Shown here in pieces: positions 7,837 to 15,508 of a stretch of DNA of 64,000 bases. The notes beneath the pieces are model-generated. The model saw only the letters and a list, made by a program, of their open reading frames with translations. It was not told the origin of the DNA and made no database searches. The stretch is from Acidobacteriota bacterium (GTDB lineage: Bacteria > Acidobacteriota > Blastocatellia > Pyrinomonadales > Pyrinomonadaceae). Both the position numbers and the translations under genes were made by a program. The stretch is taken from positions 1-64,000 of the forward strand of contig QHXN01000036.1 in assembly GCA_003222975.1 (NCBI GenBank). The letters run 5' to 3'. How positions within the stretch are numbered: position 1 is the stretch's first letter; every line of letters starts with the position of its first letter.

Positions 7837-9462
7837 CTATTTTAGAATTGATGAGAACGCATCATTCAGCACCATTAACGCATCTACGTTCGGCTGTGAG
7901 CATAAAACAGATTCCCTGTAGCTTTCGTAAGCATCCCGAATCAGACGTTCAGTTTTTGAGTCAATGACCTCTAAGTCCACAACTTTGGCCTTATTCAAAT
8001 CGTTAGGCTCAAATTTGTTCAGCCCGCCGCCATACTCTCGCCGATTATCGTTTAAGATTTCCTTTGAAATATCAGAAAGAAAATAAGCCATTAATAGATC
8101 AACTTTTACCGCGGCAAACATATTCAGATAAATAGCATGAAAGCAGGTGAGGTTTCGCACGCCGGCTTCATTTCTGACGAAACGCAATCCGGTGCGGTTG
8201 AAAACCGTGACGAGGATGGGGGCGGGCGGGCGATTTTCAATCGCGTACCAAGGGGTTCTATGCTTCGTTAAATATCTTTCGTTGACCCCCGATCTTTCGC
8301 CAAGCTCGATGTACTGTTTGACGGCCTTGTCTGTTAAGTCCGAAGCATCGAAGAGAAAAACCCTGCTCCCTTTCGTGCGTAAACTATCGTACCCGATTTG
8401 AGTGAAGAAGTTGGTGCCAGCGTGTACGGCTTTCGTAAGACACGGAAGTAAATATTTGTCTTTAATCCTGTACTCTGCCTTCTTCTTTTCATCGAAGGTG
8501 AAATAGTCGTTATCACCTGTCGCAATGCCTCTCACAACTTTGCCGTAGGTTGAAAGCGTGACTAAATTTTTGAACTTTTCGCCGCCCTGTTTTTGGTAAT
8601 AGCCGCGCCATTTCACATCAGGGTTCAAGTCTGAACGGTGAACACTTTTTCCAACAGCCTTACTATTAGGGTAGGAGGCAATCTGCTCGAAAATGGCCGG
8701 CAAGTCTTCTGCCCGTTGAGCGTCGAGGAATGTTACGGCTTCCGACTTATCGTCATTGGCGAAAAGAAGAATACAGGATGTGGTCAGCGCGTTAGTAAAA
8801 ACATTTTCTTTCGAGTTAAAGAGAATTACATAACGTAGAGTTTCACTTTCGAGTAAGTGCTTCTTGATAACTGTTCCGTAATCGGCATTCAAGAACTCGA
8901 AAGGCACAAGGTAAGCCGCCCGCCCCTGCGCGGTCAGTTGTTTGACCGACTTTAATATGAACATCGTATAGATGTTGGTGAACCCGCTTAAATTCATATT
9001 CAAGCGGGATTGAAATTCTTCGAGGCTGGCCGCGCGATTTTTATAATCCTGAAACTTGAAATAGGGTGGGTTACAGATGATCCCGTCATACCTCCTAAGC
9101 CAATCGTTGAACAGATAATCCTTGATCTTCAATTCAGTATTGGTGTGACTAAAATTAGTGAATAAAGATTTAGCTTCAACCAAAACTTTTGGGTCAATGT
9201 CATAACCTGTAAATTTATAACCGTTCTGCGGTTTGATTTGGCTGATGACACGAAAGAAAATTCCTAAGCCGACTGCCGGGTCAAGGATAGTTTGACAAGC
9301 CGGATTGCCCGTAATCCATTTCGCCATGAATTCGGCTACCGGAAGGGGGGTGAAAAATTGGCCGAACTTTTTCCGGTGGCTTGCGGAAACCGACGCGGTA
9401 TAAGCCGATTCGGGGGCGTTCGTTAATAACGCTTCAGATGTGGCGGTGGGCTTCAAAATCAT
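7837..9462 (-). CDS. N-6 adenine-specific DNA methyltransferase (Eco57I/TaqI-like)
   Basis: HRKKFGQFFTPLPVAEFMAKWI...LDPAVGLGIFF...GIICNPPYFKFQ motifs; ORF extends to 9513, start uncertain (9462 or 9480). Confidence 0.88.
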   Translation of the reverse strand: MILKPTATSEALLTNAPESAYTASVSASHRKKFGQFFTPLPVAEFMAKWITGNPACQTILDPAVGLGIFFRVISQIKPQNGYKFTGYDIDPKVLVEAKSLFTNFSHTNTELKIKDYLFNDWLRRYDGIICNPPYFKFQDYKNRAASLEEFQSRLNMNLSGFTNIYTMFILKSVKQLTAQGRAAYLVPFEFLNADYGTVIKKHLLESETLRYVILFNSKENVFTNALTTSCILLFANDDKSEAVTFLDAQRAEDLPAIFEQIASYPNSKAVGKSVHRSDLNPDVKWRGYYQKQGGEKFKNLVTLSTYGKVVRGIATGDNDYFTFDEKKKAEYRIKDKYLLPCLTKAVHAGTNFFTQIGYDSLRTKGSRVFLFDASDLTDKAVKQYIELGERSGVNERYLTKHRTPWYAIENRPPAPILVTVFNRTGLRFVRNEAGVRNLTCFHAIYLNMFAAVKVDLLMAYFLSDISKEILNDNRREYGGGLNKFEPNDLNKAKVVDLEVIDSKTERLIRDAYESYRESVLCSQPNVDALMVLNDAFSSILK

Positions 9463-9996
9463 TGCTTTACTCAAGCTCATAAGGCATTTGGAGAAGACTA
9501 TAGAGAGTGCCAAGATTCAGATAGGCTTCCCCGCCCTCGAACGTTACATGAAGCGGACTCTGGGTGCGTTAAAATTGACGATACTTGTAGGTACTTGTTG
9601 TGTTAACCGATCTATCGTGTCCTTATTAAGTCACAAATGATTATTGCCTTCCTAAGTTTCCATACGGCGAATGTAGAAACGCATTATTAAAAATCGTTCG
9701 TGATTTAAGCAAGCTGTGTTCACCCCTTCAGAATAGGCGAAGCGTCCAACCTTCATCTTCGCCCTTGACACATTTTTGTGATATGTATACCGTGCTGAGT
9801 CACAGGAGGGGCGGGGAGCACCGGGACGGTGTAGCCGGGTCGTGCTTCTCGTCCGAAGTTTTACCCTCGCTGAATTTTCCGTCGCACCCGTCGCGGGCCT
9901 CCGAGGCTCGACCACAGTTCCCTCGTAGCAGCCATAAAGGACTCGACTCCCGGCGGCGGTCTCACCCACACTGAGGCCGGGAGCTTTTCACAAGGG

Positions 9997-10602: not shown

Positions 10603-12996
10603 TCACTCGTCACCTTCTCGCCCGCGCGACTGCGCGCCGAACTGCTTAAGCACTTCCCGGCGCTCCTTGCCGTGCAGGTCTGTGTCGAGGCGCGAGAGCG
10701 CGACCACGACCACATCGCGGTGGTGGACTTCGGCCTCGCCGCCCTCGCGCGTGACTTCGAGCCAGAGGCGGTGGATGAGGCCCACGTCCGCCTCCGACAG
10801 CTCCGGCGCGTGCGCGCCGAGGTAGAAGTCGTGCGCCGTGCCTTCGGGGTCTATGACGCGGAACGAGACTTGTCGGCTCGGCTTGTGCGGCAGCGCCTCC
10901 CACGCCTCGCCGAGCAGATGCGCCTGCTCTTCGGGCGTCATCACGGAGGAACGGCCCGCGATGATCTCGGAGGATTCGAGCTGCGCGGCGGTGTGCGCGA
11001 TGGCCTGGAAGACGTTCGACGAAGGCACAACGAGCAGGTCAACGTGCTTGCCCGCTTTTTCCGCCAGCGCCACGACGCGGCTGAAGAGCAACTGCTCGTA
11101 GCTGGTGAAGAGGTGTTGCTCGCCGATGTCCTCGTAGCCGGTGTCGGGGCCTCTGAGGAGTTGCACGGTCATCATCACCAGGTCGCGCTTGCCCGTGTGC
11201 GTCAGCTCCAGCGCCTTGCGGACGTGTTCGAGCGTGTTGTAGTCGCGCACGAGGCAGAGGGTGTTGCCGGGGCGCACCTCGACTGTCTCGTTCGAGACGG
11301 TCTCCTGTGTCGAGACGCGGAACTGATCTACGGCGGTGCGGTGCGCCTCCTCGCCGCGCCGGCGCTCGTTGACACGCTCGGAGACGGAGAAGACCGTGAA
11401 GAAGACGAGCGTGAAGGCGATGCCGCTGACGGTCGCCACCTGTTTGGTGGCGAGGTTGACCGCGGCGACCGAGAAGAGGATCAGCATGATCAGGCCCAGG
11501 CCGACCGGAATCTCCGTCGAGCCGACGCGCAGGTTGAGCGGCACCTTCCACTCGCGCCGCTCCTTGCGCTGGAAGCGCAGCACCGTCATCGAGAGCGAGT
11601 TGAAGAAGAAAGACCAGATGACGCCGAAGGCGTAGGCCTCGCCGAGCACGAAGGTGTTGCCGCGCGAGCCGATGATCGCGACGAGTTGCAGTATCGCGAT
11701 CAGGTTAATCATGCGGAAGGTCGTGCCGTAGCGCTTGTGCGGCGCGCGGAACCAGTCGGTCATCACGCCGTCCTCCGAGACGCGGTTCAGCACTCCGTTC
11801 GCGCCGATGATCGAGGTGTTGATCGCCCCGGCGAGCATCAGGAAGCCGACGATGACGATGAACGCCTGGAACAGGAGCCTCAAGGGGAGCGGGCCGATCA
11901 GGTACATCGAGATGCCGCTGATGAGGTTGTTGAAATACTGCGGGCGCACAGAGTCGGGGATGATGGCGTAGGCGAAGAACGAGACGAGCGAGGTGAACAA
12001 AAGCGAATAGAGGAAGATGACCATGCCCGCCTTCATCAGGTTCCTGTGCTTCGGGTACTCCAGCTCGCGGTTGACCTGCGCGAGAGATTCTTCGCCCGAC
12101 ATGGCGAGGAACGAGTGGCCGAACGCCATCAGGATGCCGATCAGGCCGATGAGCGCGCCCGCGTTCGGCACGATCTTGTAATGCGTGCTCCGCTCGACGC
12201 CCGCGCCTCCGGCCTCCGCCCCGCCGGTCAGGTTGCCCTCGTCGAGCGCGGCGGACTCTTCCGCGGTGACTTTGCGCAGTTCACCGGGGATGAGCCGCGG
12301 CATCCAGCCGACGGCGTCCTCGTTGAAGGTCAGGTTGCGCGGGGCGGGCGCGGGCGGCAGGCGCTGCGCCGCGGGCTTCGCCAGAATAGTGAGACCGCAC
12401 CAGGCGATTAAGAGCACGACCATGACGGACGTGACGTACATGATCTTCAGCGCGTCGTCCGACGACTCGTGAATGCCTTTCGTGTTGCGCCACCAGAAAT
12501 AGACCGTGATGAGCACGGCTATCCCGGCGGCGAAGTAATTAATCGTGTCGGGCGACGGGTTCATCGGGTAGCCGAAGTAAGTCGCGGTCTGCGCGACCAG
12601 CCCGACGATGTACTGCCCCGCCGACACGCCCGAAATCGGCCCCGTCAAAATGTAGTCGAACATTAGGGCGGAGACCGACAGCTTCGCCAGCGTCCCGCCC
12701 ATCGCCTCCTTCACCACGCGATAGACGCCTCCGCGCGTGAACATCGCGCAGGATTCCACATAGACGGCCCTCACGGCGTAGGAGAAAAGCATCACGCCGA
12801 GGATGAACCAGGGGGCGGCCCGGCCCACGGCCTGCTCGGCGATGCCTCCGACGTAGTAGGCCGAGGAGCCGAGGTCGTTCAAGACTATTGCCGCCGCCCG
12901 CCAGAAGGAGATGAACGACAGCATCACGGACGTGGCGACGATGACCTTCGCCTGCCGCCCGCCCTGCCCGTTCGCCAAAGAGTCAGCCACACTCAT
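10603..12996 (-). CDS. APC family amino acid/polyamine-type permease with C-terminal USP-like cytosolic domain
   Basis: Many TM segments, MSVADSLANGQGG...; AGGAGG Shine-Dalgarno 6-7 nt upstream of 12996. Confidence 0.85.
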   Translation of the reverse strand: MSVADSLANGQGGRQAKVIVATSVMLSFISFWRAAAIVLNDLGSSAYYVGGIAEQAVGRAAPWFILGVMLFSYAVRAVYVESCAMFTRGGVYRVVKEAMGGTLAKLSVSALMFDYILTGPISGVSAGQYIVGLVAQTATYFGYPMNPSPDTINYFAAGIAVLITVYFWWRNTKGIHESSDDALKIMYVTSVMVVLLIAWCGLTILAKPAAQRLPPAPAPRNLTFNEDAVGWMPRLIPGELRKVTAEESAALDEGNLTGGAEAGGAGVERSTHYKIVPNAGALIGLIGILMAFGHSFLAMSGEESLAQVNRELEYPKHRNLMKAGMVIFLYSLLFTSLVSFFAYAIIPDSVRPQYFNNLISGISMYLIGPLPLRLLFQAFIVIVGFLMLAGAINTSIIGANGVLNRVSEDGVMTDWFRAPHKRYGTTFRMINLIAILQLVAIIGSRGNTFVLGEAYAFGVIWSFFFNSLSMTVLRFQRKERREWKVPLNLRVGSTEIPVGLGLIMLILFSVAAVNLATKQVATVSGIAFTLVFFTVFSVSERVNERRRGEEAHRTAVDQFRVSTQETVSNETVEVRPGNTLCLVRDYNTLEHVRKALELTHTGKRDLVMMTVQLLRGPDTGYEDIGEQHLFTSYEQLLFSRVVALAEKAGKHVDLLVVPSSNVFQAIAHTAAQLESSEIIAGRSSVMTPEEQAHLLGEAWEALPHKPSRQVSFRVIDPEGTAHDFYLGAHAPELSEADVGLIHRLWLEVTREGGEAEVHHRDVVVVALSRLDTDLHGKERREVLKQFGAQSRGREGDE

Positions 12997-13025
12997 CAGA
13001 GACCTCCTCGCCGCGCGCCGACCGT

Positions 13026-13063
13026 AAAAAGGGCGCGGAAGCACGCACGTTGCTTCCGCGCCC
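13026..13063 (-). terminator. Intrinsic terminator in leader of APC permease (riboswitch expression platform)
   Basis: Minus strand GGGCGCGGAAGCA-ACGTGCG-TGCTTCCGCGCCC-TTTTT: 13-bp perfect stem, 7-nt loop, T5 tract, 29 nt before ATG. Confidence 0.85.
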
Positions 13064-13084
13064 TCTAGAGTTCCGAGCCGCGGC

Positions 13085-13265
13085 GGTGTCCTTCCCTTGA
13101 AGCCTGCGAGGTTAGCTGTCGGGCTAGAACGTGGAAGTGTTCTACGCGCGCCGCGAAAAGTCCCGGCGGACTCTCCGACAACCGTGCGCGATTCGCCCCG
13201 TGCCGCGCCACCCATGGCGGCGTCGGCGTCGGTTCCCCCGCGCTGCCCCTCCCGCGCCCCTTGCC
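13085..13265 (-). ncRNA. ydaO-type c-di-AMP riboswitch aptamer (boundaries approximate)
   Basis: Minus strand contains CGGGGGAACCG (13230-13240), GGGGCGAATCGC (13188-13199) and CCCGACAGCTAACCTCGCAGGCTTCAAGGGAAGGAC (13088-13123), matching conserved ydaO segments in order. Confidence 0.85.
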
Positions 13266-13338
13266 CGGACGCCGTGAGCAGCTTCGGCAGACGATTTGTC
13301 AACGCGTGGAATCTTACGCCCGCCCCCGCCCCAAGGCA

Positions 13339-13472
13339 ATTGCGGAGCGGCGGATTTCGGATTGCCGATTTGAGGAGGCGTGACGCTGATCAAATACGCC
13401 CCGAACTCCGGCGCGGCGCTGACGAATGACTTCGAGAGGCAGCGCGGCCCCGTCAATCCGCCGCTCCGCAAT
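13339..13472. repeat. Intergenic inverted repeat, ATTGCGGAGCGGCGGATT
   Basis: 18-bp perfect arms 13339-13356 / 13455-13472; arm ends 5 bp from the stop of the adjacent permease. Confidence 0.92.
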
Positions 13473-13476
13473 CGCG

Positions 13477-15462
13477 TTAGCCGCCGACGTGCACGGCGGG
13501 GCGGCGATCCGGGTCGCTCTCGACCTGCCGCAGAACCTCGCGCGTGACCGGCGCGGTGTCGCCCTCGCCGAAGAAGATGTATTCAAAGATGTGGGCGACG
13601 GGGTTGCCCTCAGTCCAACTGAAGTAGGCGTGCGGCAGCTTGCCCGTCGTGTCGCGGACGTGGAGCAGGAAGGCGGCGATGGAGTTCGGCACGGTCGAGC
13701 TTTCGGCGCGGAGCACGTGGTAGCCGCCGACTTCGACGCCCTTGATCTCCATCACGTCTGTAAACTCCGAGGCGTCGCACACCTTCACCTCAAGGAACAA
13801 GACCTTCTCTTTTTTCGGGATGTGGTTGTCCTCGCGCTGCTCTTTCTCTTTCAACCTGTACTCCCCGACATCGCCGCGCCCCGGCCGGATGGCGATGATG
13901 TGTATCTCGCCTCTGCCAGCCTCGCGAATGAAAGACTCGGCGGCCTCGTCCATCTCTATCCGCTCGACGCGCAACTCGGTCGTGCGCCACACCCTCGACA
14001 GGAACGACGCGACGACGATAGCCCCGATGAAGATGGAAGCGATCTTGATTCCGTCGGTGCGCTCGACGACGTTGACCACCGTCGTGTACGCGAAGACCAG
14101 CGCGATGAGGGCGAAGGCGAACGTCCGCGCGCGCCAACCCTTCCGCCTCAACTCCGAAAGAGTCACGGCCACCGCCGCCGAACTCATCAGGACGAGCACG
14201 CCCGTCGCGTAAGCCCCGCCCTGCGCGTCAACGTCCGCCTTGAAGATGACCGTCACCGCGAAGGCCACCGACGTGAAGACCAGGACGAGCGGGCGCGTCG
14301 CCTTCGCCCAGTTCGGGGCCATCCCGTAGCGCGGCAGGTAGCGCGGCACGATGTTCAGCAGCCCGGCCATCGCCGACGCGCCCGCGAACCAGAGGATCAG
14401 GATTGTGCTCACGTCGTAAACGGTGCCGAAACCTTCGCCCAGGAATTTGTGCGCGAGGTAGGCGAGCGCGCGACCGTTCGCCGCGCCGGCCTGCTGATCT
14501 TCGGTCGCCGCCCGAAATGCTTCGGCAGGAATCAGGGTGGTCGTCACGAAACTGCTGGCGATCAGAAAGACGCTCATGATGAGCGCGGCACTGAGAAGCA
14601 GTTTGCGCGTGTTGCGCACGCGGCCCGCCGGATTCTTATCCGTGTCCGCCTTGTCGCCTTTAATCAGCGGCATCACGGCCACGCCGGTCTCGAACCCCGA
14701 AAGTCCGAGCGCGAGTTTGGGAAAGAGCAGGAGCGCGACGCCGATCATCAACAGAGGGTTCCCGTGGACTCTGGGCGCGGCGAAGAGCGCGTCCTTCCAG
14801 CTCGGCACGACCTCCGGGTGGAGCGCTATCTGATAGACGCCGAAGCCGAGCACGACGAGGTTGAGCAGGAGGTAAGAGGCGACGAGGATGACGGCGATGC
14901 CGATGGCCTCCTTAAAGCCTTTGAGGAAGATTCCGCCGAGCAGCGCGACCAGCGCGAGCGTGACGACGACTTTGTATTCGTGACCGAGAAAACTGCGCAC
15001 GAAAGGGTTCTCGATGACGTGCGCCGTCGCGTCCGCCGCCGAGAGCGTGATGGTGATCACGAAGTCGGTGGCGACGAACCCGAGCAGCATCAGCACGAAC
15101 AGCTTACCCTTCCACCAGGACAGAAGGTGTTCGAGCATCGAGATCGAGCCTTCGCCGTGCGGGCTTTCGGCGGCGACGCGGTTGTAGATCGGGAGCGCGC
15201 CGAAAAGTGTCAACAGGACGAGGATCAGCGTGGCGATGGGCGAGAGCGCCCCGGCGGCCAGGAAGGCGATGCCCGGTTGGTAACCGAGCGTCGAGAAATA
15301 ATCTACGCCCGTCAGGCACATCACCTTCCACCACGGGTGCTGTTGGTGATGCCCCTCGCGCTCGTGCGGCCCCTCTATCTCTTGGGTCTGTCCCTTGAGC
15401 AGCCAGCGCCTGAACTTCCCTACCTTTCTCTCCTCAGTTCGCGGGATTGCCGTCTCGGCCAT
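13477..15462 (-). CDS. APC family permease (second copy, divergent from the first)
   Basis: [17 protein letters not shown]...[72 protein letters not shown] before 15462. Confidence 0.85.
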
Positions 15463-15508
15463 CTGCCCCTCCTGCCCGGAGGACGGGAGCGCCGCCCCGC
15501 TCACTTCA

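Follow-up and report, generated by a model that had tools for sequence, protein, structure and literature searches.

A ydaO-type c-di-AMP riboswitch with an intrinsic terminator lies upstream of an APC-superfamily permease gene in an acidobacterial genome

We analysed a stretch of 64,000 nucleotides from an Acidobacteriota bacterium (assembly GCA_003222975.1, contig QHXN01000036.1, positions 1 to 64,000 of the forward strand), referred to below as the window. On its minus strand, a gene for a membrane protein of 675 residues is followed by a promoter-like element, an aptamer of the c-di-AMP riboswitch family, an intrinsic terminator, a Shine-Dalgarno-like sequence and the gene for an APC-superfamily permease of 797 residues (Table 1).

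Table 1 Features of the riboswitch locus, with positions in the window
Feature	Position	Strand	Basis
675-aa membrane protein, APC-like by eye, without Pfam match	13477..15504	-	upstream neighbour of permease
Promoter-like pair TTGCCT-17-TAAGAT, 8/12 to consensus, ending 11 nt before the aptamer	13311..13339	-	recurrent position in relatives
c-di-AMP (ydaO/yuaA) riboswitch aptamer, RF00379	13086..13299	-	57.7 bits against a gathering cut-off of 38 bits; model positions 1-134
CUUCC, loop strand of the aptamer pseudoknot	13133..13137	-	partner of the 3' tail; also present in crystallised ydaO RNA
GGAAG, 3' tail strand of the aptamer pseudoknot	13091..13095	-	pairing with the loop CUUCC 13137-13133
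Intrinsic terminator: 13-bp GC-rich stem, 7-nt loop, U5	13026..13063	-	sequence and folding
Shine-Dalgarno-like GAGGAGG, 6 nt before ATG	13003..13009	-	sequence
APC-superfamily permease, 797 aa, AA_permease_2 and a C-terminal region without Pfam match; predicted regulated gene	10603..12996	-	domain search

The presence of a ydaO-type aptamer in this leader was examined with cmscan against Rfam. The RF00379 match, with an E value of 9.3e-11, covers the entire model and scores well over the gathering cut-off, an outcome in favour of the original prediction. The conserved ydaO blocks that this prediction had read in the minus-strand leader are all present. The aptamer starts 34 nt upstream of the interval first proposed for the element, 13026-13265, and the stretch missing from that interval includes the 5' strand of P1 (GCC, 13288-13286). 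The TAGAAC/GTTCTA hairpin described at the same time is real and occupies 13144-13139 and 13130-13125. The loop and the 3' tail can form the pseudoknot that belongs to RF00379, and folding of the entire leader gives a z-score of -3.3. Judged by its sequence, the element is a genuine and ordinary member of the known ydaO-type class of c-di-AMP riboswitches.

Downstream of the aptamer, the two arms of the terminator, GGGCGCGGAAGCA and TGCTTCCGCGCCC (13063-13051 and 13043-13031), pair over exactly 13 bp and are followed by TTTTT at 13030-13026. The ATG is at 12996, and 29 nt separate it from the last of the five uridines, in agreement with the original prediction. The hairpin has a folding energy of -30.7 kcal/mol and a z-score of -7.3 against dinucleotide shuffles, and a permissive scan, run without a shuffled control, placed a terminator candidate downstream of the aptamer in 45 of 56 leaders. 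The putative expression platform precedes the AA_permease_2 gene. With the Shine-Dalgarno-like sequence located after the terminator and ahead of the ATG, the layout fits a transcriptional, not a translational, control.

A generic promoter scan with a threshold of 9/12 returned nothing; the 8/12 pair listed in Table 1 emerged from its recurrent position in relatives. In 37 of 54 leaders, a distance of 10-12 nt separates the end of the best -10-like hexamer from the start of the Rfam match, and the scores exceed those of shuffled sequence (mean 7.8 vs 6.5). The leaders compared are related by descent, so that the recurrence of position is a support and not a proof. These data suggest that the switch has a promoter of its own, with a putative transcription start near the first base of the aptamer.

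The assignment of the downstream gene to the APC permeases was right, the 797-residue product having an AA_permease_2 domain (E value of 2.4e-47). No PDB relative of this protein was found by sequence or by family profile, and its match to the KimA homologue of its own genome is short and weak (E value of 6e-4 in a single comparison). Sequence similarity thus does not place it among the KimA K+ transporters. A search of the genome collection for the permease yielded 39 loci, mostly from Acidobacteria and Elusimicrobia, and the permease is present in 8 of 40 relatives, its own genome counted. RF00379 lies directly upstream of the permease orthologue in L075, L085, L095, L098, L099 and L110, where L075 is apparently the same place as the G020 riboswitch locus. 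Apart from the present genome, the riboswitch occupies this position in several Elusimicrobia and in two genomes of Acidobacteria. Most of the other orthologues at the loci retrieved in this search have no detectable RF00379. The association of riboswitch and permease is therefore patchy, but it recurs in two phyla.

The original prediction had also offered a possible antiterminator, in which the aptamer would be intact and would bind c-di-AMP while antitermination would proceed through pairing of the ACTTCCAC loop with the 5' arm of the terminator. In the window, CUUCC is indeed complementary to the GGAAG of the terminator arm over 5 bp. However, this loop has a partner in the aptamer's own 3' tail, and across 56 leaders loop and tail change in a compensatory way (CTTTCA/TGAAAG, CTTCTC/GAGAAG, CTTCCA/TGGAAG and CTTCTTCG/CGAAGAAG). 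The loop-tail pairing reaches a mean of 6.3 Watson-Crick pairs, compared to 5.2 with shuffled tails and to a maximum of 5.6 in 200 shuffles, and the same pairing strands, CUCCUUCG and CGAAGGAG, are present in the crystallised ydaO RNA (PMC5393176). In contrast, the complementarity of the loop to the terminator arm in the relatives barely exceeds that of shuffled sequence (3.90 vs 3.69, with 13 of 300 shuffles as high). Considering the compensatory changes together with the strands of the crystallised RNA, the ACTTCCAC loop is, on comparative grounds, a strand of the known pseudoknot of the aptamer itself and not a conserved antiterminator, which leaves antitermination through this loop quite improbable. 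The best alternative helix with the 5' arm of the terminator varied in location across relatives, so that a consistent antiterminator was not found. In the same way, when the aptamer was folded together with this arm, the partners of the arm were scattered, lying for the window mainly in the spacer, and no conserved antiterminator helix emerged. As the alternative helices have no consistent location and the folding partners are scattered, we do not claim an antiterminator.

A different reading concerns the target rather than the mechanism. The riboswitch could be a relic, or it could have been displaced from its natural target, the upstream gene for the 675-residue protein, behind which it lies here. 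In eleven leaders of relatives, RF00379 stands immediately upstream of orthologues of this gene with 61-74% identity, and in the window a search before this gene, extended to degenerate copies, found no RF00379. Nevertheless, the riboswitch, the terminator, the Shine-Dalgarno-like sequence and the promoter-like element are all present in full and lead into the permease gene, and the placement before the permease orthologue recurs in other genomes and in another phylum. We consider displacement from the upstream gene very improbable, even more so than antitermination through the loop, and retain the permease gene as the predicted target. The 675-residue protein has no match in Pfam or NCBIfam, and no PDB relative of it was found. 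In a Chloracidobacterium (L074, 1085-9240), a gene of the 675-residue type and a permease of the 797-residue type are followed by RF00379 and a kimA-like gene. Because of this gene order and of the eleven leaders, the transporters of the 675-residue, 797-residue and kimA-like types seem to share a c-di-AMP theme, with the placement of the switch differing between genomes.

The genome holds three copies of RF00379, of which the two besides the permease copy share one contig. One of these precedes a gene whose product matches KimA (PDB 6s3k, E value of 2.6e-156), and the other precedes kdpA, which is followed by kdpB- and kdpC-like open reading frames, the latter two identified by eye. The kimA-like and kdp riboswitch loci (L034, 5482-7845 and 10086-15883) have KdpD/KdpE-like two-component genes between them. 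The search for a DAC-domain cyclase that the original prediction had named as a check came out in its favour, with one diadenylate cyclase in the genome, a protein of 297 residues of the CdaA type with a DAC domain at 140.7 bits and a weak CdaA_N match. By eye, a YbbR/CdaR-like open reading frame follows its gene. The genome thus encodes the capacity to make c-di-AMP. Counting the present genome, RF00379 was found in 34 of the 60 genomes searched, most of which belong to the same family.

What we observed is the family match of the aptamer, its terminator, the order of the genes, the presence of a cyclase and an association that recurs in relatives; ligand binding, the direction of control and whatever competes with the terminator are inferred. 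We put at about 0.93 the probability that the element is a standard ydaO-type c-di-AMP riboswitch working as a transcriptional OFF switch. In other bacteria, a high c-di-AMP level corresponds to a K+-replete cell. Transcription would start near 13300, just ahead of the aptamer, and at high c-di-AMP two molecules of the ligand would lock the aptamer together with its P1 and its loop/tail pseudoknot. The 13-bp terminator would then form and transcription would stop before the permease ATG, while upon a drop in c-di-AMP the polymerase would read through and the AA_permease_2 transporter would be made. The direction, OFF with ligand, is most likely by analogy with the riboswitch before kdpFABC of Bacillus thuringiensis, in which binding of c-di-AMP promotes termination (PMC6488665).

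The leader shares with that of Bacillus subtilis ydaO (kimA), also RF00379, all the conserved blocks, the core, the pseudoknot strands and an intrinsic terminator downstream. Unlike the B. subtilis element, it has longer GC-rich variable stems, with 214 nt for the aptamer against 134 positions in the model, and the gene that it would regulate encodes another AA_permease_2 transporter, only weakly similar to KimA. As in B. thuringiensis (PMC6488665), the 5' UTR of a transporter gene holds the aptamer and, after it, an intrinsic terminator, whereas the target there is a K+ ATPase and here a separate copy of RF00379 precedes the kdp genes.

Riboswitches of this class are well known, as is the way in which they work, and the locus adds a probable acidobacterial example of control by c-di-AMP, well supported by sequence comparison. 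The uncharacterised permease family and the neighbouring membrane protein are likely members of a c-di-AMP potassium/osmolyte regulon. Tentatively, and at somewhat less than even odds, the 797-residue permease may represent an uncharacterised APC family of Acidobacteria and Elusimicrobia that is repeatedly under c-di-AMP control, perhaps a carrier of K+ or compatible solutes. The same cell would then have three uptake routes controlled by c-di-AMP, the other two being KimA and Kdp.

Elsewhere in the window, the minus-strand stretch 7837-9513 has an NPPY motif and resembles a restriction-modification gene for an adenine-specific DNA methylase, with a GC content that by eye is below that of its surroundings.
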